DNA of 64,000 nucleotides from Thermoplasmata archaeon (GTDB lineage Archaea; Thermoplasmatota; Thermoplasmata; Methanomassiliicoccales; Methanomethylophilaceae): the NCBI GenBank assembly GCA_015063125.1, contig SUTB01000002.1, forward strand, positions 90,720 to 154,719, read 5' to 3'. A program made the translations under genes and the position numbers. The notes beneath the pieces were generated by a model, which had not been told where the DNA came from, ran no database searches, and saw only the letters and a program-made list of their open reading frames with translations. Shown here piece by piece: positions 4,822 through 46,427 of the stretch (positions are counted from its first letter, which is position 1; every line of letters starts with the position of its first letter).

Positions 4822-8161
<3,340 letters not shown>

Positions 8162-34293: not shown

Positions 34294-35322
34294 TCAGATG
34301 AGATCGAAGTAATCCTTGAACCATCTCTTCGTCTGGCGGATGAGCTCTGACAGCATGAACGATATCTTTCCTTGACCGGCAGGCCTCTCCCTCTTCTCTT
34401 CGATCGGGATCCTCTCGATCCTATCCGCACCGACATGGCTGGCCATCCAGGCCAGCAGTTTGTTCTCGTATTCCCACAGATGCCTGATGTGCCTGTTCAG
34501 TATATGGATGACATAGAAGAACAGGAACGAGAAGTACAGGCCGACGACCATGAGTATGGGGTTAACTTCCGGAATGTTGAAGCCCAGACCGTTCGCGTAT
34601 CTGATGCTGAATCTCAGCACAGTTGTCAACACTAGGGAGACGACAATCAAAGCGACCTGGATCTCCACCTTCTTCTTCATCGTGCTGGGTTTCATCGGTT
34701 CGGGGAATCCTTTGCTGTCAAAGGTCCCTTTCAGCAATTCCGTGAACCTGCATAGGATGTCATCTATCTTGTTTAACTTGTAAACGCCGAACAGACTGGT
34801 GATGCAGAGGTTGGCGGCTGTGATCCCGAGGACGATGATCTCCGGGGTCTTGAACTGGCCGTCTCCAGAACCCGAACGGAAATCCAATATGAAGAAACTC
34901 AGGGCCATCATCGCCACCATGGCGGCGAATATGAGGAACGAGACCATCCTTCCCCATACGATGCGCTGAGAGGCCACATCATCTGCCAGCAACCTGAGTT
35001 CTCTGGAATCCTTGTCGTTGTCCTCCACGAACTCGCATAGGGCATCGGTCCACACTATGGTACGGTCCGTATGCAGCTTGATGGATTTCATCAGCACATA
35101 GGTGATGAATGCCGCATCCATGGAGAAGAACAGTGCGATCAGGTATTCGCCTGCATCCGAAAAACCGAACCACACCCCTGATTCGATATAGAGCCTGACG
35201 ATCAGGAGTACGATGAAACTCAGGGAACCGGGGATTATCAGCAGCAACACTAACGGATTAATCGATATGTCCTTACCAGCACGGCGTAGAACGCAATCGA
35301 GGAATCTGTCCTCTGCCGACAT
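34294..35322 (-). CDS. Membrane protein of unknown function, next to the peptide operon
   Basis: About 342 residues with three groups of hydrophobic helices: residues 20-75 (two segments), 125-185 (two segments) and 225-275 (two segments), and a basic C-terminal tail. I start at the second Met (MSAEDRF, 35322). No family recognised. It shares a short divergent spacer with another orphan membrane protein, and both lie directly beyond the SpoIIE end of the RiPP-like operon. An immunity or sensor role is possible but unsupported. Confidence 0.6.
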   Translation of the reverse strand: MSAEDRFLDCVLRRAGKDISINPLVLLLIIPGSLSFIVLLIVRLYIESGVWFGFSDAGEYLIALFFSMDAAFITYVLMKSIKLHTDRTIVWTDALCEFVEDNDKDSRELRLLADDVASQRIVWGRMVSFLIFAAMVAMMALSFFILDFRSGSGDGQFKTPEIIVLGITAANLCITSLFGVYKLNKIDDILCRFTELLKGTFDSKGFPEPMKPSTMKKKVEIQVALIVVSLVLTTVLRFSIRYANGLGFNIPEVNPILMVVGLYFSFLFFYVIHILNRHIRHLWEYENKLLAWMASHVGADRIERIPIEEKRERPAGQGKISFMLSELIRQTKRWFKDYFDLI

Positions 35323-35377
35323 GCCCATAATGGTACGATATTTTTAATTGTAAATAACCATTTTTGAGCCGATTGGC

Positions 35378-35911
35378 ATGGAGTTGGGCGGTGAAAGGAC
35401 CAGTATTGCGAGGATGCCTCGTATCCTATACTTGGTGGAAATATGCCTGGCCTACGTTCTGTCGTTCAACATCTACAAGTTCAGCGTTCTCTCGTATGGG
35501 CTGGACCTGTCCACGCTGGAGTCCTCTGTAAGGTACCTTTACATCCTGGGCTCAACCATCATCTCATCGGAGATGACCATAAGGACTATGGTAAAGCTGT
35601 CCTCGGCCCAGAAGAGGTCCTGGCAGCTGGCCAACAAGACCATGATCCTGCAGATATTCCTGGTCCTTCTGAACGGTTATGTGTTCGGGAACTGGGCAAG
35701 GAACCCGTTGATCCAATCCGAGGTCCCATTCGTATTCGTCTGCATCCTCTGCATGCTCATCATGTTCCTTCCGCATGTGAGGAAGTACTACACTCCTCCG
35801 ATGGTCGGCACTACCGAGGCCAAGAAATGGATCCCCTACATTCTGTGGGATTTCACCAAGGACAGCAGGTACCATTACGTCTTCGGTTACGATGATGACA
35901 AGAAGTCCTGA
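35378..35911 (+). CDS. Small orphan membrane protein convergent with the peptide operon
   Basis: A 177-residue protein with four probable membrane helices (IAR-MPRILYLVEICLAYVLSF, the segment near SSVRYLYILGSTIISS, ILQIFLVLLNGYVFG and VFVCILCMLIMFLP) and a soluble acidic C-terminus ending DDDKKS. It is tail-to-tail with the SpoIIE gene, 18 bases apart. Not recognised. Given its location, a self-protection function for the exported peptides is a testable guess. Confidence 0.6.
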   Translation: MELGGERTSIARMPRILYLVEICLAYVLSFNIYKFSVLSYGLDLSTLESSVRYLYILGSTIISSEMTIRTMVKLSSAQKRSWQLANKTMILQIFLVLLNGYVFGNWARNPLIQSEVPFVFVCILCMLIMFLPHVRKYYTPPMVGTTEAKKWIPYILWDFTKDSRYHYVFGYDDDKKS

Positions 35912-35929: not shown

Positions 35930-37795
35930 TCAGAAATGCTTCTTGAGGGTCAAGATGTTGGTTCCGTCCCTGTATTCGTATGAGCTCTCTTCCATGATGC
36001 TATTGACGATGATCAGGCCGAGTCCGCCTGCGCGCAGGTCGGTCTCTCCCTCTTCGAATGCATGATTTTCGACCTCTAGCTGATTGAAGGGTTTAGCATG
36101 ATCGATTATCGTCAGGACGAACCCTCTGCTCTCGTCATCGAAGGACAGACGCACCAGGATCTCGCCGCCGTTGTTCTCGTACCCGTACTTGATAATGTTG
36201 GACAACAGCTCATCGCCGACTATGACCATCTGCTTCCTGAAATCCTCGGGGAATCCGTGCTCGTTACCGAAGACCTCGATGTATTCCAGCATCTCAGGGA
36301 TGTTATCGATCTTGGCATCGAAACTCCTCTCCTCGAAATAGTCCTTGTTGGCGTGATACTTCACGGTGAGAAGGGTGATGTCATCGCTCTGAGGTGCATC
36401 CCCGACGAAATCCACCAGATCATGCTTTATCGCGTCATGGAGTTTGATGACGGACTCATGGACCTGACCGTTCATCGTGTTCAGAAGTCTCTCGTCCCCG
36501 TAGAAATCGCCATCGGTATTCCTGGCCTCGGTCACACCGTCGGTGTAGAGGGTCATGCTCTCCCCAGGATTCAGAACGACCTTCTCATCGACGATGAAGG
36601 TCTTATTGAAGCATCCCAGCATGATCCCGGGGTTGCATTTCAGATAGCGGTAGTTCCCGTTGGAACCGATCAATACCGGGTTGTGTCCCGCATTGGCGAA
36701 CACTATATCCCCGTTCCTCTTGTCCAGGATGGCCAAGAAACAGGTCACGAACATGCTGGCGGAGTTACCCTTCTTGATGGAATCGTTTATCTCATTCAGG
36801 ATCTGGGAAGGAGTCTTCCCTACTTTCGCGAAGTCCCTGAAGGCGGTGATGGTCTTCATCATGAACATGGCTGCCGGAACTCCCTTGCCAGAAACATCTC
36901 CGATAAGGAATGCGAAATGGTCCTTGTCGATCTCCAGATAATCGTAGAGGTCTCCACCGACCTCTTTCGCAGCCTTCAGCTCTGCGACGATCTCGATGCC
37001 TTTTATCGACAGATTCTTCTTGGGCAAGGTCTCCATCTGGATCTTCTTGGCGACTTCCAGCTCGGTCTTGCCCTTTTCAACCTCGTTGCTGGCGTTGACC
37101 TCATCCGCTAGGAGGGTCTTCGTCCTCTTGTTGAGATACATCACTCCGGCGAACAGCAGGATGATGAACAGCAGCCTTCCTCCCAGATACGCAGTCAGTA
37201 TCACGTTGAATCTGTTCTCTCCAGCTAAGGCCAGGGCATCCAGGTATTGCTGCCTTCCCTCCGGTGTGTCCGGATAGATGTCAGGCAGAAGTTCGTTGTG
37301 GATGGTAGCGCTGAGAACATCGACCTGACCAGAAAGGAGGTTGGAATCGTATTCTCCATAGAACACTCCCAGATACAGACAGCATATCATCGCTGTGATG
37401 ACGGTCACGAAGACGATCATGCAGACCCGGGGATTGTAATAATGCCCTGTAAGAGCGATACAGACGGCCCACCCAAGTATACCATGCTTCGGCATTATGA
37501 TGTTCAGGATAGATATGGACAGGATGAACAGGAACAGCACATAGTACTTGAACAGGGGATTGTAGAGATGCTTGCTCTTGTAGAACAGCATGGGGGTGAG
37601 CAGCAACACGACCACGATTGGAAGGATCGTTATCGTCAAATTGTATGTGAACTCTCCGACCTTGAACACGTTTGGGATGTAGGCCATCCACACCAGGATT
37701 GCCAGGGCCGCGGCCAGGAGCAGGACCAGGCACATGTGTCTGTTGGCGTCGGCCTCATTCTTCGCATACGGACTTAGATGTCCATCGTCGGTCAT
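35930..37795 (-). CDS. Membrane SpoIIE/RsbU phosphatase fused to an RsbW-like kinase domain
   Basis: A 621-residue protein. Residues 20-200 hold about six membrane helices with one large external loop. A coiled segment (TLLADEVNASNEVEKGKTEL) leads to a PP2C/SpoIIE phosphatase (GGDLYDYLEI, FLIGDVSGKGVPAAMFM, FANAGHNPV, LYTDGVTEARN, SDDITLL, about residues 255-480). The last 130 residues are a GHKL RsbW-like domain (N box DELLSNIIKYGY, then IIDHAKPFNQLE and GGLGLIIV). It lies 15 bases after the STAS gene, its predicted substrate/partner. Such partner switches control sigma factors in bacteria; archaea have none, so the output here is unknown. GTG at 37804 is an alternative start. Confidence 0.85.
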   Translation of the reverse strand: MTDDGHLSPYAKNEADANRHMCLVLLLAAALAILVWMAYIPNVFKVGEFTYNLTITILPIVVVLLLTPMLFYKSKHLYNPLFKYYVLFLFILSISILNIIMPKHGILGWAVCIALTGHYYNPRVCMIVFVTVITAMICCLYLGVFYGEYDSNLLSGQVDVLSATIHNELLPDIYPDTPEGRQQYLDALALAGENRFNVILTAYLGGRLLFIILLFAGVMYLNKRTKTLLADEVNASNEVEKGKTELEVAKKIQMETLPKKNLSIKGIEIVAELKAAKEVGGDLYDYLEIDKDHFAFLIGDVSGKGVPAAMFMMKTITAFRDFAKVGKTPSQILNEINDSIKKGNSASMFVTCFLAILDKRNGDIVFANAGHNPVLIGSNGNYRYLKCNPGIMLGCFNKTFIVDEKVVLNPGESMTLYTDGVTEARNTDGDFYGDERLLNTMNGQVHESVIKLHDAIKHDLVDFVGDAPQSDDITLLTVKYHANKDYFEERSFDAKIDNIPEMLEYIEVFGNEHGFPEDFRKQMVIVGDELLSNIIKYGYENNGGEILVRLSFDDESRGFVLTIIDHAKPFNQLEVENHAFEEGETDLRAGGLGLIIVNSIMEESSYEYRDGTNILTLKKHF

Positions 37796-37810
37796 AATGA
37801 ACACGTGTAA

Positions 37811-38104
37811 TCAGAGCTTTTCGATCTTGAGAAGATTCTGGAAACCTACCATCTCTAGGATGGAATAGATGTCCTTGGGGACGTTGATCAGTGAAGTGTC
37901 ATCGCATTGCTGCTTCAATCTGACGATTATCCTCAGTCCCGCCGATGATGTGTATTTGAGGTCCTTCAAATCCAGGACGATGGCCTCGTAGGTGCTACTG
38001 GCCATTACGCTCTCTATCTCCTTCTCCGCTTCTTCCGAATTGGAGGAATTCAGTTCCCCTTCCAGGAAGAAGGTCAGGGTACCATTCTCTATGGTGTGCT
38101 TCAT
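37811..38104 (-). CDS. STAS-domain anti-sigma-antagonist-like protein (RsbV type)
   Basis: A 97-residue single STAS domain. The strand-helix pattern and the phosphorylatable serine context LKDLKYTSSAGLRIIV match RsbV/SpoIIAA. Its start overlaps the upstream ABC gene stop (ATGA) and the SpoIIE/RsbW protein follows, so phosphorylation by the RsbW-like domain and dephosphorylation by the SpoIIE domain can be predicted. The downstream target is unknown; it might act on the transporter or the maturase directly. Confidence 0.88.
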   Translation of the reverse strand: MKHTIENGTLTFFLEGELNSSNSEEAEKEIESVMASSTYEAIVLDLKDLKYTSSAGLRIIVRLKQQCDDTSLINVPKDIYSILEMVGFQNLLKIEKL

Positions 38105-40290
38105 GCTCTCCCCTCGCTGTTCAATCTCTGTCTCTCGACCAGTTCGGCGAATCTGCCATTTCTGTCGATGAGGGTCTGATAGTCGCCCTCTTCGATGATC
38201 CTGCCGTCCTCGAGCATGATGATGCGGTCCGCATTCATAATCGTTGACAATCTATGAGCTATGACGATCCTCGAGCAATTGAGCTTCTGGATGGATTCAG
38301 TGACCTTTTTCTGCGTTTTGTTGTCCAAAGCGCTGGTCGCCTCGTCGAAGATCAGGATCTTCGGTTTGTGCACGACGGCCCTGGCGATCATTATCCTCTG
38401 CTTCTGTCCTCCGGAGATGCCGCCCTGTCCTTCGGATATGATGGTCCTCATGCCCATCGGCATCTCCCTGATGTCCTCGGCCAGATCCGCGATCTCCGCC
38501 GCCTCCCAGGCATCCTTCTCCTTCAGATCCGGAGCGGTGATGAGGATGTTGGACATGATATCGGCGTGGAAGAGGGTTCCGTTCTGGATGACCGAACCTA
38601 TGTTCCTCCTCAAAGAGGTCAGGTCGATGTCCTTGATGTTGATGCCGTCGTAGAGAATCTCTCCGCTCTCAGGTTCCTCGAATCCGAGCAGCAGCCTCAC
38701 CAATGTGGATTTGCCGCATCCGCTCTGTCCGACTATGGCGACGTACTCTCCCTCCTTGACGGTCAATGATATGTCATCCAGGATCAGCTGGCCGTCCTCC
38801 TCGTATCTGAACGAGACATCCTTCAGTTCAATGTTGCCGGACACCGATTCCAGCTTGATCTTGTCGCTGTTGTTCTCCGGCTCTGTGGTCATTATGGGCC
38901 TGGCCATCTCGAAGAGAGGCTGGGCGGAGAACACAGCTCCCAATATTTGACCTAGGTTGAGGAATGCGGCTGTGATGAGACCGTAGCTGGTGATGAAGGC
39001 CACGTAGTTACCGACCGGGATGTTGTTCTCTGCGGCCATCAGGTAAAGGACGATGCTTCCCACCAACGTGATGAGCAGAGAGATCGCAGCGTTCAGTTTG
39101 AGGATGAGCGGAGGGTTGTATGTCACCTTCGTGGCCCTGAGGTACGCCCTGGTCCATTTGGCGAACGCCCTCTTCTCGGAACCGGACAGCCTGATCTTCT
39201 GTATGCCGTTGATGATCTCGTAGGTCACTCCGTCCTCCTTGGAGGACAGCTCGAGCACCTTCCTGGTATGGCTCCTCTGGACATACGAGATGTAAACCGA
39301 GAATTCCAGCGATACCACCTCTATGATCACCACAGGGATGATCAGCACGGGTGCGAAGCTGAACAACTGGACGATATAGGCCAGCGACATCACGAACGAC
39401 AGCAGCGCTATCGACATCTGGTTGACGATCAGGTTCGACAGCATCCCGACGCTGTTGAACCTGGCGGTGAGCTCTCCGGTGTTGTACTGCTTGAAGAACG
39501 ACGTAGGAAGGCTCAGAATGCGCATCATCGTCGCTTCCTGTACCGAACGGTCTATCCTTATGGCGACGCGGGAGTTGATGAAGGCCTTCGCCGCATTGAT
39601 GATCAGCAGACCGGTCGCTGTGGCGATCAGATATATGGATACACTGATGAATTGGTCCATATCCTTCGAACCAACGACATCTCCCGTCATCAGCTTGATC
39701 AGGTAAGGCAGAAGGAGCCCGACCCCGGTTGCAATGATCGACAGGAGAATCACCAGGGCTATGTCCGTTGGACGGATGGCTTTGGATATGTAGCTGGCGT
39801 ATTCCTTGAATGAGACCTTCGTCTTGGGAAGAGGCCTGTAGAAGCTGTACGCCTCCAACTCGAGCCTGTTGACGAGATTGGCATCGATGGTGGTCTTCTT
39901 TCCGGTCTCGTGGTTCACGTAGTAGTAGCTCTTCGTTCCCTTGGGGAAAATGACCACCGGGCTGTTCGAGACGATCGTGAAGATGAGCAGCGGGCATTCA
40001 TCATCGCCGGCGTACGAGTCGTCCAGCATTATCTTGCGGTACTGTACGTCGTACTGGCCGAGAGCGTAGTTGAGCTTGTCCGTGAAATCTGTAATGTTCG
40101 TCGGGATGTCCGTCATCTGGTGGTTGAAGTAGGAGAGGATCTGCGATATCGCGTAGTTCTCCCTGGCGGCCTTCTCGCTCAGATCGGTCGGATCAGCAGC
40201 CTCCATCCCGGCCAGTGACTTGAAGGATTCCTTGAGCAGTTCATCGTCTAGCTTCTTCCTTTCCTTCAACTGATCCTCGAACCAACCCAT
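38101..40290 (-). CDS. NHLM-type ABC transporter, second subunit (no peptidase)
   Basis: A 729-residue ABC half-transporter. Residues 1-155 are a soluble domain unlike C39 peptidase (no Cys-His pair), then six membrane helices (about 165-450) and an ATPase: Walker A GQSGCGKSTL, signature GISGGQKQR, Walker B ILIFDEATSALD, H loop IVIAHRLS. This layout matches the second subunit of NHLM bacteriocin export systems (TIGR03797-like, from memory). A strong SD (GGAGGTGAGG) precedes the ATG, 12 bases after the C39 transporter. It probably pairs with that protein as a heteromeric exporter. Confidence 0.85.
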   Translation of the reverse strand: MGWFEDQLKERKKLDDELLKESFKSLAGMEAADPTDLSEKAARENYAISQILSYFNHQMTDIPTNITDFTDKLNYALGQYDVQYRKIMLDDSYAGDDECPLLIFTIVSNSPVVIFPKGTKSYYYVNHETGKKTTIDANLVNRLELEAYSFYRPLPKTKVSFKEYASYISKAIRPTDIALVILLSIIATGVGLLLPYLIKLMTGDVVGSKDMDQFISVSIYLIATATGLLIINAAKAFINSRVAIRIDRSVQEATMMRILSLPTSFFKQYNTGELTARFNSVGMLSNLIVNQMSIALLSFVMSLAYIVQLFSFAPVLIIPVVIIEVVSLEFSVYISYVQRSHTRKVLELSSKEDGVTYEIINGIQKIRLSGSEKRAFAKWTRAYLRATKVTYNPPLILKLNAAISLLITLVGSIVLYLMAAENNIPVGNYVAFITSYGLITAAFLNLGQILGAVFSAQPLFEMARPIMTTEPENNSDKIKLESVSGNIELKDVSFRYEEDGQLILDDISLTVKEGEYVAIVGQSGCGKSTLVRLLLGFEEPESGEILYDGINIKDIDLTSLRRNIGSVIQNGTLFHADIMSNILITAPDLKEKDAWEAAEIADLAEDIREMPMGMRTIISEGQGGISGGQKQRIMIARAVVHKPKILIFDEATSALDNKTQKKVTESIQKLNCSRIVIAHRLSTIMNADRIIMLEDGRIIEEGDYQTLIDRNGRFAELVERQRLNSEGRA

Positions 40291-40302: not shown

Positions 40303-42483
40303 TCATCCATTTGTTACCAGATCGTAGTAGCATCCCTTGACTGCCATGAGCTCGTCATGGGTGCCGCGTTCGACTATGTGCCCCTTGTCCAGAACCACGA
40401 TGAGGTCAGCATCCCTGATCGTGGACAATCTGTGTGCTATGACGATGGTGGTAATGCCCCTTGCCTTGATGGCGTTGACGACCTCGTACTCGGTCTTGGC
40501 GTCCAAGGCGCTCGTCGCCTCATCCAGTATTATCAGGCTGGGGTCGCTGGCGAGTGAGCGGGCGATCTCGATCCTCTGCCTCTCCCCTCCGGAGAAGTTC
40601 TTCCCGCCTTCCAACACGAGGGAGTTGTACCCTCCCTCCCTGCTCATGATAGTGCTGTGGATCTGAGCATCGTTGCAGGCCATGATGACCTCGTAGTCAG
40701 CTATCGATTCATCCCACATCTTGATGTTGTTGTTGATCGTGTCCTCGAACAGGGTTATCTCCTGATCCACGACGGCTATCGATGATGTGAATATCTCGTG
40801 GTCGATCTCGCTTATCCTCTGTCCGTTGAATATTATGTCCCCGCTCCATGGCGAGTACAGTCCGGAGATAAGTCTGGAGACCGTCGATTTACCGCTCCCC
40901 GTGGAACCGACTATCGCGACCTTCTGACCCTGCTGGACCTCCAAACTGAAGCCCTCTATGGTAGGCTTGTCCATTATTGAATAGCCGAAAGTCAGGTCCC
41001 TGACCACGAGGTCGCCTCTGATCTTGGAGGCGTGGTCAGTGGGTATCTCCCTGATGACGTTCTCATCCAGAGGGTTCTCCAGGACATCGTCCACCCTCTC
41101 CATCTTGGTGCGCATCTCCTGCAGTGTCTGCCCGCTGGACACGACGGTCATGGCAGGTGACATGAACAGGCTCATCAGACCCTGGAAGGTCACGATGGCA
41201 CCGACTGTGAACTGGTCGTTCATGGTAAGGTATATTCCGAGGATCAGGACCGCATAGTTGGCCATCGTAGAGATGAATGAGGGCAGAAGGCCCAAGGTCG
41301 CATTGATCCTGGCCATCTTGAACTTCCCTTTGACCACATCGTCCTGCACTGCGGACCAGGATGCGAAATAAGAGGATTCGGAACCGTTCGATTTGATGGT
41401 CTCCACCATCTCGATGCCTTTGGAGGTCATCGCAGTCAGATTGGCAGCGTCACGTAATTGGACGCGCGAGACGTTCACCCTGATCTTGGAGATGTACTGT
41501 GAGATGAAGATGTTCAGGACGATCGCGGAAACCCCTACGAGCGTCAGAATCCAGCTTTGTCTGATCATGAAGAACAGATAGACGATGATCATGATGGCGC
41601 TGTACATCAGCGGGGCGAAGACGTTCACCATAGTCTCCGCTATAGTGGCGTTCTCCGACTGGCGCCTCTGCAGGTCCCCTACCATCCTCTGGGAGAAGAA
41701 CTCTATCGGCAGCCTCAGGATGGTCCACATGTATGTCTTGGAACCGGCTATGTCGAGCTCGCCCCTGATCTTGTACTGGTAGAGGGATTGGATCATCTTC
41801 AGTATAACTTGGAACAACCCGACTCCTGCTATGATCAGAATGAAAGGTAGAAGCCATCCCGGATCCTCGCCGCCCAGCACCTTATCGATGAATATCCTGT
41901 CCATCAGCGGATTGACCACGCCGGCCAGGTTGATGAGGATCGCCGTGATCGAGAAGAATGCGACTATCTTCATGTTCCCCTTGAGCCTCTTCTTGGCGAA
42001 ATCGATGACCGATTTCCTCTCTCCGCTGGGAACGAAATCCTCACCTGGTTCCAATTCGAGGTAGATCCCGGTGTACATCTCGTCGAAGGTCTTCAGGTCG
42101 ACCTTGACCAGTCCTTTCGCGGGGTCGTTGATTATGGCCTTGTTCCCTTTGAAACCGTTGAGCACGACGAAGTGACCGCCGCTCCAGTGTATGATCGCAG
42201 GGAATTTGCCCTTCTCTTTCAGCTTCTCGATGCCGCAAGCGAACCCCTTGGTCTTGAATCCATACTTCTGGGCGGCCTTGAGGATGTTCTTGGCGTTGCT
42301 CCCGTTGCGTGAGACGCCGCAATCGACCCTCAGCTGCTCCAGCGGGACCCATTTGCCGTAATAGGCCATGACCATAGCTAAGGATGCAGCTCCGCACTCG
42401 AGTGTCTCGAGTTGCATGATGAGCGGAGTGCTCGCTACCCCGGAAGTTTTGGGCTTCCTCACCTTCTTAGCTTTAGCCACCAA
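40303..42483 (-). CDS. Peptidase-containing ABC transporter (C39, NHLM/PCAT type)
   Basis: A 726-residue exporter that should cut leader peptides after the Gly-Gly-type site and export the core. The C39 domain shows oxyanion Gln24, nucleophile Cys30 (LETLECGAASLAMV), His104 (GGHFVVLNG) and Asp120 (INDPAKG), so all catalytic residues are present. Six membrane helices and an ATPase follow (GSTGSGKSTV, FSGGERQRIEIA, LIILDEATSALD). Start is TTG 42483 or GTG 42480, with AGGTG 8-11 bases upstream. It lies 109 bases after the radical SAM gene and immediately before the second ABC gene. Confidence 0.92.
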   Translation of the reverse strand: MVAKAKKVRKPKTSGVASTPLIMQLETLECGAASLAMVMAYYGKWVPLEQLRVDCGVSRNGSNAKNILKAAQKYGFKTKGFACGIEKLKEKGKFPAIIHWSGGHFVVLNGFKGNKAIINDPAKGLVKVDLKTFDEMYTGIYLELEPGEDFVPSGERKSVIDFAKKRLKGNMKIVAFFSITAILINLAGVVNPLMDRIFIDKVLGGEDPGWLLPFILIIAGVGLFQVILKMIQSLYQYKIRGELDIAGSKTYMWTILRLPIEFFSQRMVGDLQRRQSENATIAETMVNVFAPLMYSAIMIIVYLFFMIRQSWILTLVGVSAIVLNIFISQYISKIRVNVSRVQLRDAANLTAMTSKGIEMVETIKSNGSESSYFASWSAVQDDVVKGKFKMARINATLGLLPSFISTMANYAVLILGIYLTMNDQFTVGAIVTFQGLMSLFMSPAMTVVSSGQTLQEMRTKMERVDDVLENPLDENVIREIPTDHASKIRGDLVVRDLTFGYSIMDKPTIEGFSLEVQQGQKVAIVGSTGSGKSTVSRLISGLYSPWSGDIIFNGQRISEIDHEIFTSSIAVVDQEITLFEDTINNNIKMWDESIADYEVIMACNDAQIHSTIMSREGGYNSLVLEGGKNFSGGERQRIEIARSLASDPSLIILDEATSALDAKTEYEVVNAIKARGITTIVIAHRLSTIRDADLIVVLDKGHIVERGTHDELMAVKGCYYDLVTNG

Positions 42484-42592: not shown

Positions 42593-43987
42593 TCAGATGT
42601 CCAGGGGGTTGATCAATTGCCATTCCTTGAGCGAATCGGTGATCCTCTCATACCAACCGTTCTCGAAGAAGATGCATTTGCTGATGTCCTCGTGATAGAA
42701 GTCGCTGTCAGGCGAATACAGCAGACCCAATGCCGGACAGCCTCCGGTGCAGGCCTTGTAGTACTTGCAGTCTGCACATTTGTCGTTCTTCATTATCTGG
42801 ACCAGAAGAGGCGCTACGGCCACGTCGAGATAGCGGCTGTTCCTGATGAGGTCCTTGAGAGGAGTCACTAACAGATTCCCCAGGCTGATCCCCTTGTCCA
42901 TGAGATAGCCGGACATCTGCAGGCACGGAACGACATCCCCGGTGCTGGTCACGGCGATCATGCCGCGGTTGCTCTTGCACATGGGGATGCGGATGTTGAA
43001 CCTATCCTTGCTGCACGATACGGGGACGAGTTCGTAGTTCTTGAACCTGGGGACCATCCTGATGAGCTGCCAGACCTCCACGTTCATCTTCAGACCCGAA
43101 GCCATGTACTCTTTGGAGAACTCCGTCATGCGCTCATAGTACTCCTCTATCGTGAGACTCGAGTGCGGGGAGGACTTCTCCCATCTGGGCGCTTCGGTGG
43201 TCCTGATGATCCTCATGTTCTCCACCCCGAGCCCGTCGAGCAACCTTGCCGTATCCATCATGACATCGACATTCTTGCGGTTCACCTGGACCTGGGCCAT
43301 GACTCTGAAGCCGTTACTTATGCAGAGCTCTATGGCCTTGATCGCCAGCTCCTCCGCCTTCGGATTCTGTCTGATCCAATTGTGATGGCCGATGCCGTCG
43401 AACGATATCTTGATCACCGGTCTGCATCCAATCTCTTTGAAAGCATCTAGCATGCTCTGGTCTATCAGCACCCCGTTGGTGTTGAGCTCGAAGATATGCA
43501 TGTTCCTCTCGTAGATCGCCCTGACGATGTCCAGGAACCTGCGGTGCACCATAGGCTCTCCTCCAGTCACGGTGAAGGCATGGACGCCGATGTCCCTGGC
43601 TTGGTCCAGGATGTCCATTATCTGCTCGTAGGAGAGCTCGCTGTTGAGCGGTGCGTTGTCCATCGCATTGAAGCAATGGAGGCAGTTCATGTTGCACCGC
43701 CCGGTGATCATCAGATTCATCCTCGGGAAATAGAGGTTATCGTATTCCTTCAGAGCTGACCACTCACTCGGGCCATCGCCTTCGCTGCATACTTCAATGA
43801 ATCCCTTGTCGATAAGTCTGTTCACAAGAGGATCCGTTCCGATATCATGTTCGCCGTCGCACTTCAGGAGCAGTCCGAACTCGTCTTTGGAGACTCTCAA
43901 GGCCAGATCGGTGCCTTTCTTGTACACGGCACCGTCTAAGTATTTCCATTTCCTCAGTGCGATGTTCTCTTTTAGACGGTAGAACAT
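42593..43987 (-). CDS. Radical SAM/SPASM peptide maturase
   Basis: A 464-residue enzyme. The radical-SAM cluster motif is CNMNCLHC (C98, C102, C105). The C-terminal SPASM region shows CSKDRF, a Cys before KSNRG, DVVPCLQMSG and CADCKYYKACTGGCPALG with a last Cys near the end, giving ligands for two auxiliary 4Fe-4S clusters. Residues 1-85 are a small PqqD-like leader-recognition region. I start at MFYRLKENI (43987); the longer frame runs back into the precursor gene. It follows the second precursor by 41 bases and should modify the precursor cores. Thioether or C-C/C-N crosslinks are typical; the exact chemistry is unknown. Confidence 0.9.
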   Translation of the reverse strand: MFYRLKENIALRKWKYLDGAVYKKGTDLALRVSKDEFGLLLKCDGEHDIGTDPLVNRLIDKGFIEVCSEGDGPSEWSALKEYDNLYFPRMNLMITGRCNMNCLHCFNAMDNAPLNSELSYEQIMDILDQARDIGVHAFTVTGGEPMVHRRFLDIVRAIYERNMHIFELNTNGVLIDQSMLDAFKEIGCRPVIKISFDGIGHHNWIRQNPKAEELAIKAIELCISNGFRVMAQVQVNRKNVDVMMDTARLLDGLGVENMRIIRTTEAPRWEKSSPHSSLTIEEYYERMTEFSKEYMASGLKMNVEVWQLIRMVPRFKNYELVPVSCSKDRFNIRIPMCKSNRGMIAVTSTGDVVPCLQMSGYLMDKGISLGNLLVTPLKDLIRNSRYLDVAVAPLLVQIMKNDKCADCKYYKACTGGCPALGLLYSPDSDFYHEDISKCIFFENGWYERITDSLKEWQLINPLDI

Positions 43988-44028: not shown

Positions 44029-44307
44029 TCAAGAATATTGCAGGAGGCCGTTGTACTTGGTACCGCAGCCTTTGCACTCATAGTAACCGATACCGTCGTT
44101 CATGGTCTCGATGTATTCGGTGCATCCGCATTTGGGACAGACAGGGAGGACTCTTGTGTCACAGCTGCCGGTAACGGCCGCCATCTGTTCATCGGTGAGC
44201 TCTACGCCTTCCGCCTTGGCCAATGCCAACAACTCCGCCGTGGATCCACATTTCTTGGCCAGTTCGAGCTGTTCCTCGGTCAGACCTTTCAGCAATTCCG
44301 ATTTCAT
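44029..44307 (-). CDS. RiPP precursor peptide 2 (Nif11-like leader, zinc-ribbon-like core)
   Basis: A 92-residue precursor. The leader (1-48) has LTEEQLELAKKC, ELLALAKAEGVELTDEQ and ends AVTGS, the Nif11/NHLP-type cleavage motif with Ser instead of the second Gly. The predicted 44-residue core has six Cys at 49, 57, 60, 62, 78 and 81, arranged as CPKCGC and CKGCG. An ideal SD (CAGGTGATT) precedes the ATG. It is 22 bases after its paralogue and 41 before the maturase. A small zinc-ribbon protein with a leader-like front is the main alternative. Confidence 0.8.
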   Translation of the reverse strand: MKSELLKGLTEEQLELAKKCGSTAELLALAKAEGVELTDEQMAAVTGSCDTRVLPVCPKCGCTEYIETMNDGIGYYECKGCGTKYNGLLQYS

Positions 44308-44329
44308 TTAGAATCACCTGACAGAATCA

Positions 44330-44608
44330 TCATTTGTATTGGAGCATGCCGTTGTACTTGGTACCGCAGCCCTGACATTCGTAGTATCCTACGCCACCGT
44401 TCATGGTCTCAGTGAACTCGGTACATCCGCAATTGGGACAGACAGGATTGACTTCCGTATCACAGCCGCCGGTCACTGCGCCCAACTGCTCTTCCGAGAG
44501 CTCCACGCCCTCTCTTTTGGCAATGGACAGCAGCTCTTCCATACTCCTGCAGTCCTTGATCATCTCTTTCTGTTCCTCGGTCAGACCTTTCAATAGCTCT
44601 TCCCTCAC
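44330..44608 (-). CDS. RiPP precursor peptide 1 (Nif11-like leader, zinc-ribbon-like core)
   Basis: A 92-residue paralogue of precursor 2; an ungapped comparison by eye gives about 65 identical positions. The leader ends AVTGG, a canonical double-Gly site, then a 44-residue core with Cys at 49, 57, 60, 62, 78 and 81 (CPNCGC, CQGCG). Start is GTG 44608 with GGGGGAT upstream, so this first gene of the operon has its own ribosome site. The core keeps YYEC, GCGTKYNG and a C-terminal LQY. The retained length, Cys pattern and cleavage site in both copies argue for selection on the whole peptide. Confidence 0.8.
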   Translation of the reverse strand: MREELLKGLTEEQKEMIKDCRSMEELLSIAKREGVELSEEQLGAVTGGCDTEVNPVCPNCGCTEFTETMNGGVGYYECQGCGTKYNGMLQYK

Positions 44609-45047: not shown

Positions 45048-45475
45048 ATGACGATGAACTTCAGATTCCTGGATTCATCCAGCCCTAATGGGACTACCAG
45101 TAAGCGTCCATACGTCCTCGTCAGATTCTTTCACAACGACAAGGAATTGGAGCAGTATGCTCTGATCGATAGCGGTGCTGACATGAGCGCTATGGATTAC
45201 AGGTACGCCACTAAATTAGGGCTTGACCTAACAGGAAAAAGGTGAAGACATTCGGCGTATCTGGTCCGGTCGAGTCCGTCGTCACCAGGATTCATGTGGA
45301 GATCTCCAAGGGTCATGAGCATTACGTTTATGAGATCCCCCTCCGTGTGCTTTTCTCAGAAACGGAATTCTTCGCCCCTACGCTCTTGGGCAGACAGGGT
45401 TTCTTTGATAAATTCGTCATTACCATTGACGAATCCGAGCAGAAGATCAAGCTGAAGCACAATGGTCAGGAATGA
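45048..45475 (+). CDS. Retropepsin-like aspartic protease split by a -1 frameshift
   Basis: Two frames join into one clan AA protease. Frame 1 (45048-45245) carries the catalytic ALIDSGADMSAMD. Frame 2 (from GTG 45242 to 45475) carries GVSG, PLRVLFSE and LLGRQGFFDKF, the second half of the fold. They meet at GGAAAAAGGTGA, where a -1 slip on the A run gives a continuous product of about 141 residues; the stop and GTG also overlap (GTGA). It may be a programmed frameshift, a coupled two-chain enzyme, a mutation or a base-call error. Confidence 0.65.
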
Positions 45476-45749: not shown

Positions 45750-46427
45750 ATGAAAGCGAAAGCTAGGTATGGGCCCTACAAGGCCGGGAGCAGCAGGAAG
45801 AACAAGAGGACCAAGGTCAGGAATCTTGTGTCCTTCGAGAAGGGGAACATCAGGATATTTCTCAGACAGATAACGCCATTCGACGAGGTTTCTGAGGAGT
45901 ACGTCCAGCCCTTCCTAAGGTTGGTCTCTTTGGTTGACGGCAAGTATGCGAGGATTCCTTCAATCGATCGGTTCCGGACTGTCGATGAAGGAGGATTCAG
46001 GATTGGAGTACTCAGCCCCTTTGAAACCGGAAGCTATCCAGGAGGCGAGCGAATGAGCTCAGAGGAGGAATTCATCCAGGAAGCTCAAGAGAAGCTTGGG
46101 GTCCCACAGCCGGTATCGAAACCTCCCATGAGGCTGCCGTTGAACAAGTTTCATTACGGCCGCCTCTTCGCCAATTTCACATTGGTGGCAGACTATGACA
46201 TCAAGAATCAGGAGTACAACCCTCCGGAGCCCAGACTGAACACATCTATGGGGGAGAAGCGCATTTGGCTTCCCACAGATCCGGAGGTCATCAGGCTTTT
46301 GGGCGAGTACTTCATCACAGTCGGAAAGACGATGGAGGATCTCAAGTTCCCTACCAAGGAAGTCTATATCGAGGAGATCAGGAGGATCCTGATGTCATGC
46401 GGGTGTGTGGTGAAGGATGGGAATTAA
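45750..46427 (+). CDS. Hypothetical protein within the tRNA-bounded element
   Basis: A 225-residue soluble protein, start MKAKARYGPYKAG with a basic first 25 residues, then mixed alpha/beta. Pro-rich segments (GVPQPVSKPPMRLP; YNPPEP) and a C-terminal CGC are visible. I recognise no family. It ends in UAA, unusual in this window where UGA dominates, and it lies between the two att-like repeats. The 274 bases before it show no gene, only the left repeat. Confidence 0.55.
   Translation: MKAKARYGPYKAGSSRKNKRTKVRNLVSFEKGNIRIFLRQITPFDEVSEEYVQPFLRLVSLVDGKYARIPSIDRFRTVDEGGFRIGVLSPFETGSYPGGERMSSEEEFIQEAQEKLGVPQPVSKPPMRLPLNKFHYGRLFANFTLVADYDIKNQEYNPPEPRLNTSMGEKRIWLPTDPEVIRLLGEYFITVGKTMEDLKFPTKEVYIEEIRRILMSCGCVVKDGN

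Follow-up and report, generated by a model that had tools for sequence, protein, structure and literature searches.

Most RiPP maturases described so far work on cores without a fixed structure. Nif11-leader/NHLM export systems (Haft et al. 2010, PMC2887384; TIGR03798, TIGR03796, TIGR03797) combine an acidic GG leader, with a shared ELS/TxExL...GG end, with a hypervariable core and a C39 ABC1 plus ABC2 exporter. Sactipeptides and ranthipeptides, such as ruminococcin C (PMC8188230) and PapB products (PMC9413430), pair a SPASM maturase with a Cys-rich, leader-borne substrate. These features recur in the window, by which we mean the whole stretch of 64,000 nucleotides analysed here, and the locus it contains is composed of parts of known kinds, namely Nif11/NHLM export (PMC2887384), SPASM maturases and zinc ribbons. 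The host is a gut archaeon of the Methanomethylophilaceae; its nearest named relative, RGIG4496, comes from roe deer and was the one true relative found when genome contigs were scanned with narrow patterns. On balance, with slightly better than even confidence, we favour a reading in which the locus would produce secreted zinc-ribbon peptides by a RiPP-like pathway of clostridial origin, the maturase acting at or near the first core cysteine (C1) and a metal sitting on the knuckles.

The gene run and its precursors

The features of the locus are as follows; the knuckles are ribbon-like as judged from the Cys alignment and, for core B, a Pfam match.

44330..44608, minus strand: precursor B, 92 aa, GTG start; leader 44465-44608, GG site, 44-aa core 44333-44464
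44462..44464, minus strand: C1 of core B, directly after GG, invariant in 13 cores; proposed maturase target
44429..44440, minus strand: putative first zinc knuckle of core B (CPNC)
44366..44377, minus strand: putative second zinc knuckle of core B (CQGC)
44029..44307, minus strand: precursor A, 92 aa, ATG start, AGGTGAT ribosome site; leader 44164-44307, GS site, core 44032-44163
44161..44163, minus strand: C1 of core A, directly after GS
44128..44139, minus strand: putative first zinc knuckle of core A (CPKC)
44065..44076, minus strand: putative second zinc knuckle of core A (CKGC)
42593..43987, minus strand: radical SAM/SPASM maturase, 464 aa (PF04055 and PF13186)
40303..42483, minus strand: C39 peptidase/ABC exporter of NHLM ABC1 type (TIGR03796, 836.3 bits, cut-off 853.3; PF03412, 4.5e-33)
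38101..40290, minus strand: second exporter subunit of NHLM ABC2 type (TIGR03797, 684.1 bits, cut-off 709.4)
37811..38104, minus strand: STAS protein, anti-sigma-antagonist-like (PF01740, 4.6e-13), overlapping the ABC2 gene by 4 bases
35930..37804, minus strand: membrane protein with SpoIIE phosphatase and RsbW-like HATPase_c_2 domains (PF07228, 1.4e-51; PF13581, 2.8e-20)

Read along the minus strand from 44608 to 35930, the order is B, A, maturase, ABC1, ABC2, STAS and SpoIIE-HATPase, and a single transcript for the whole run is plausible because the gaps between the genes are short (22, 41, 109, 12, -4 and 6 bases). Both exporter genes share this run with the precursors and score just under their curated cut-offs.

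An earlier note on this DNA had described two tandem precursors of a RiPP-type pathway, each a leader plus a core, and that description stands. The two open reading frames are real, lying 22 bases apart on the minus strand, and align without gaps over their 92 residues at 71% identity (65/92, with the GTG of B read as M). Six Cys occupy the same places in both cores (C1, C9, C12, C14, C30 and C33), and CPxCGC is followed by CxGCG, with 17 residues separating the two CxxC motifs. The suggestion of a recent duplication under selection holds in part: purifying selection fits the divergence between the copies (dN 0.215, dS 1.79), whereas recency is unsupported because a dS of about 1.8 is near saturation. 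Nor are all six Cys kept, C14 being Ser in the nearest relative and variable across the family.

The leader of B ends in LSEEQLGAVTGG, with the L-12, L-7, V-4 and GG of C39 substrates, and that of A in LTDEQMAAVTGS, with M at -7 and a GS site. The recognition pattern L-12, L-7, V-4 was described for a C39 domain, LahT150, that cleaves at GA and GS (PMC6363468). In the Nif11 leader test, B scored 13.3 bits against TIGR03798 (cut-off 32.3) and 15.4 against PF07862 (cut-off 23.8), A gave no match, and a clostridial relative from the same precursor group reached 29.8 bits (E 5e-7). Both copies are present in L080, from a second genome of the species, at 6475-7054, and compared with those of the window they carry four nonsynonymous changes and not a single synonymous one; for the maturase, the two genomes differ by two nonsynonymous and 13 synonymous changes. 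These small counts hint that the precursors may evolve faster than the maturase within the species.

The start of the maturase (MFYRLKEN) is fixed by its homologues; a longer reading frame, starting at 44077, overlaps precursor A. The protein carries CxxxCxxC at C98-C105 and seven SPASM Cys, the latter conserved in 12 sequences. No NCBIfam equivalog was matched above its cut-off (StsB, 76 of 625 bits; PapB, 67 of 340 bits), and relatives of the maturase score similarly against these models. An N-terminal RRE, PqqD-like by eye, was considered and set aside, the first 80 residues of three homologues matching no Pfam family. The maturase is linked to the precursors by adjacency, its gene lying 41 bases from precursor A, and by co-occurrence.

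Several open reading frames flank the run. Two membrane proteins adjoin it at 34294-35328 (344 aa) and 35378-35911 (177 aa), as also in L010; they match no Pfam family above threshold and are possibly immunity genes or vertical neighbours. Two adjoining frames at 45048-45475 together resemble a retropepsin-type protease by eye (LIDSGAD). They are split at GGA AAA AGG TGA, which by eye may be a frameshift or programmed slip, and are found again in L080 (5608-6035). A 225-aa frame without a family match at 45750-46427 is represented by two frames in L080 (4618-5333).

Relatives in archaea and Clostridia

The maturase occurs in 3/147 genomes of the order: the window genome, another from the same species, and G012, which belongs to the genus. 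All three archaeal genomes that carry this exporter have retained it. Gene order is the same in L080 and in L010, from another species of the genus. This recurrence, together with the Cys-fixed shuffles described below, indicates that the precursor pair is more than a chance pattern. G012 shows this order and has one precursor with five Cys (CGC replaced by CGS), and a lone further precursor elsewhere that joins the same leader to a different core (YCDPGPGGCIKEKEPEA). Comparison of L010 with L011 shows leaders that stay while cores diverge.

The closest relatives are clostridial. L115, the nearest bacterial match, shares 61% identity in the maturase, 66% in ABC1 and 57% in ABC2; it has no adjoining precursor, there being one elsewhere in its genome (L158). 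In the ABC1 tree the two archaeal exporters are nested inside Clostridia with strong support, well separated from the C39 exporters that this archaeal family otherwise has, and the maturase tree pairs the archaeal maturases with the same bacterium, L115. Since the archaeal exporter is nested inside Clostridia, the simple reading of these trees is that the whole cluster was transferred from Clostridia into the archaeon. Searches of viral contigs found no relatives of the maturase or precursors, and those of plasmids gave nothing closer than generic radical SAM proteins (~25% identity) and NHLM exporters (~38%). The C39 exporters of other Methanomethylophilaceae (L063-L079) were rejected as relatives, belonging to a different clade at about 30% identity, most of them with other precursors. 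Those of L066, L067, L068, L069, L070, L074 and L077 lie by short reading frames with leader ends like YAELSEDEMEYDGG; most of the cores are hydrophobic and glycine-rich, and look like unmodified bacteriocins.

Searching Clostridia with the maturase alignment yielded further members. Nif11-leader precursors adjoin the maturase in L159, L178, L179, L181, L182 and L184, and each of these loci includes ribbon cores; L178 also carries SpoIIE, STAS, HATPase and both exporter genes. L180 stops at a contig edge, no precursor was found at the maturase locus of L185, and L168 and L183 hold distant maturase homologues with other core types. The view that such cores are rare in RiPPs is thus not supported, NHLM-type clostridial loci carrying them repeatedly, as one of several core types. 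A second type, in a run of paralogues (L181 3784-6905, L182 3091-3522), has about 9-11 Cys, starts with GGC and ends in CxxC...WxCNN. At L168 8870-11650 the distant maturase homologue lies by a 182-aa reading frame, in which a Cys comes after GS, and by a 268-aa serine protease-like protein, in what may be a variant layout of the same system.

Ribbon cores and the cut-site cysteine

The likeness of the cores to zinc ribbons, raised in the earlier note, is borne out by Pfam, PDB profile and fold matches. Core B alone exceeds the gathering score of PF12760 (26.8 vs 25.4 bits), and its other Pfam matches are Lar, RRN7 and TFIIB-type ribbons with one domain of unknown function. Ten shuffles of the core with the Cys held fixed matched no Pfam family, and therefore the ribbon signal is more than CxxC spacing; the Pro/Gly residues of the knuckles and the strand pattern also agree with zinc ribbons beyond Cys spacing. 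When the PDB was searched with a profile built from 13 cores, the matches were zinc fingers and the zinc ribbons of ribosomal proteins, RNA polymerase and TFIIB (S27ae, RpoM, RPA12, TFIIB, L37ae). AlphaFold2, given three input sequences, predicted three strands in ribbon order (pLDDT 78.6), and nearly all Foldseek matches to this model were zinc ribbons or zinc fingers (TFIIB-type, ZifS, aIF2-beta, TFIIS, RPB9), none of them significant (E > 0.1). By these comparisons the core is zinc-ribbon-like in more than its Cys spacing.

The score of core B against PF12760 is also what would be expected of an ordinary zinc-ribbon protein that stays inside the cell and has a GG motif by chance. We consider this explanation highly improbable, given that the ends of the leaders agree with the C39 recognition pattern, that the genes lie in one run with a C39 exporter, and that cores diverge behind constant leaders. 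The same core without a leader or maturase had been named as the mark of an ordinary zinc-ribbon protein. That check has a partial answer: ribbon cores were found in loci without this maturase (L117, with two copies, L160, L161, L162 and L120), but all stand behind GG leaders. Zinc-ribbon proteins of the ordinary, leaderless sort give only weak matches to the precursor profile (E 1e-2 to 1e-5) and do not qualify as homologues of the peptide as a whole.

The 13 ribbon cores were drawn from maturase loci or genomes, the other twelve being 18-77% identical to core B. Exactly five of their columns are invariant: C9, C12, C30 and C33, which form the knuckles, and C1, at or near the cut site. In a pattern scan, a Cys no more than four residues from the G-run was present in 26/34 precursors from maturase loci or genomes against 4/27 elsewhere (Fisher p 1.9e-6, a value only indicative because the rule was found post hoc and many precursors are paralogues, 12 of the 34 in L181). 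The four precursors elsewhere that do have such a Cys all adjoin another radical SAM gene. Of those within it, eight of the 34 lack C1, and one L184 core is also without a proper second knuckle. When loci were scored by hand, a cut-site Cys was present in 10/10 with the maturase (window, L010, L159, L168, L178, L179, L181, L182, L183 and L184) and in 0/10 without any radical SAM gene.

The two features come apart in both directions. C1 is kept in cores with no ribbon (L179 6995-7213, GGGCITSTEIPDD; L168 11102-11650, GSCGTPSDD; L011 2039-2242), and none of the ribbon cores from loci without this maturase has a cut-site Cys. Ribbon and C1 thus appear to be separable, with C1 going with the maturase, and the pattern suggests that the enzyme acts on C1 and not on the zinc-ribbon Cys: action at or near C1 is favoured because C1 tracks the maturase and ribbons in loci without this maturase lack it. 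Hence the alternative posed in the earlier note, that the peptide either binds a metal or has its Cys crosslinked, looks false, since the knuckle Cys resemble a metal site and a separate cut-site Cys tracks the maturase. C1 could instead serve the protease or some other function.

SPASM enzymes also make sactipeptides, in whose Cys-rich hairpin cores pairs of Cys can lie close together. It is conceivable, and in our judgement unlikely, that the maturase links several core Cys, knuckles included, to backbone or side-chain carbons, giving a metal-free hairpin scaffold of sactipeptide or ranthipeptide kind. The full SPASM domain is like that of maturases in both classes, and Cys-rich cores with GG export are typical of such peptides (PMC8188230, PMC9413430). 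The knuckle and strand pattern nonetheless resembles ribbons beyond Cys spacing, CxxC...CxxC cores stand behind GG leaders in loci without this maturase, and the 13 aligned cores hold no conserved acceptor residue.

The maturase-free genes also bear on a further explanation, an unmodified, secreted zinc-ribbon microprotein, with the radical SAM enzyme acting elsewhere or on the leader only. In its favour, leader-plus-ribbon genes without this maturase accompany, in L117, an exporter with STAS and SpoIIE beside it. We nevertheless give it little credence, for the archaeal maturase gene is 41 bases from A and retained in every one of the three exporter genomes, and C1 tracks the maturase. Still less probable, indeed very unlikely, is a secreted metallophore, scavenging or donating zinc, copper or iron and not acting as a structured effector. 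Four to six thiols in 44 residues would suit that function, and copper-binding RiPPs, bufferins and methanobactins, exist (PMC12452194, PMC3621798). However, the cluster genes examined include no recognised metal transporter or metal regulator, the fold is reminiscent of structural zinc sites, and these loci carry several core types, of which the ribbon is one.

Proposed pathway and comparison with known systems

Returning to maturase action at C1 of a metal-holding ribbon, we propose that both the radical SAM/SPASM enzyme and the C39 exporter would recognise the Nif11-like leader. The maturase would modify the precursor at or near C1, most likely by a thioether to a nearby residue, which is our best guess because SPASM enzymes commonly form thioethers. 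The knuckle Cys (C9, C12, C30 and C33) would stay free and hold one metal ion, probably zinc, in a short beta ribbon. The C39 domain would cut after GG or GS, and the ABC pair would export a peptide of ~44 residues starting with the modified Cys. STAS, SpoIIE and HATPase are a classical partner-switching set. Archaea are not known to have sigma factors, so the module encoded here should act on another partner, presumably export or maturation. STAS and SpoIIE sets also adjoin clostridial NHLM exporters (L111, L117, L178, L183). As to role, an inter-microbial peptide is our default guess.

More tentatively, and with appreciably less than even confidence, the locus may represent a RiPP type in which the N-terminal Cys of a folded ribbon that holds a metal is altered by a SPASM enzyme, giving a chemical head group on a variable scaffold, and which a methanogen acquired from Clostridia along with a partner-switching module that would there have to work without sigma factors. 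A zinc ribbon as core, if true, would make a prefolded metal protein a natural product, and the C1 rule would offer a one-residue prediction of the modification site. The cluster is also a clear case of an entire peptide-export pathway passing from bacteria to an archaeon. That it has a STAS/SpoIIE module where sigma factors are absent suggests that such modules may control export or maturation directly. Zinc-ribbon RiPP cores, the C1 rule and the combination of this leader with SPASM enzyme and ribbon were not found described in the literature searched, which was thin on subscription journals.

Among named peptide families the closest appears to be TIGR04165, small Cys-rich peptides of methanogens regarded as likely radical SAM targets, on the strength of a single weak match: a clostridial core from L181 matches over most of its length (E 0.0088; 16.3 bits against a cut-off of 60), whereas the window cores do not match. 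SCIFF, with six Cys in forty-five, has a similar Cys count and was set aside by eye, its leader and CxxC pattern being different. Methanobactin and the bufferins are ribosomal, exported and use Cys-based metal ligands, as is proposed for the window peptides; their maturases and ligands are different and they have no ribbon fold. Unlike sactipeptides and ranthipeptides, the window has a maturase outside the named families and cores with zinc-ribbon knuckles but no conserved acceptor, and its thioethers are hypothetical. Known zinc-ribbon domains (PF12760 of IS1595, TFIIB, TFIIS/RPB9, L37Ae, ZifS) have the CPxCG...CxxCG knuckles and three strands in common with the window cores; they are cytosolic, whereas the ribbon here is a core behind an export leader. 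The Nif11/NHLM systems differ from the locus in degree and in kind: its leader reaches 13.3 bits where 32.3 are required and its transporters fall just below their cut-offs, and the host is an archaeon, the core zinc-ribbon-like and the maturase a radical SAM/SPASM enzyme.
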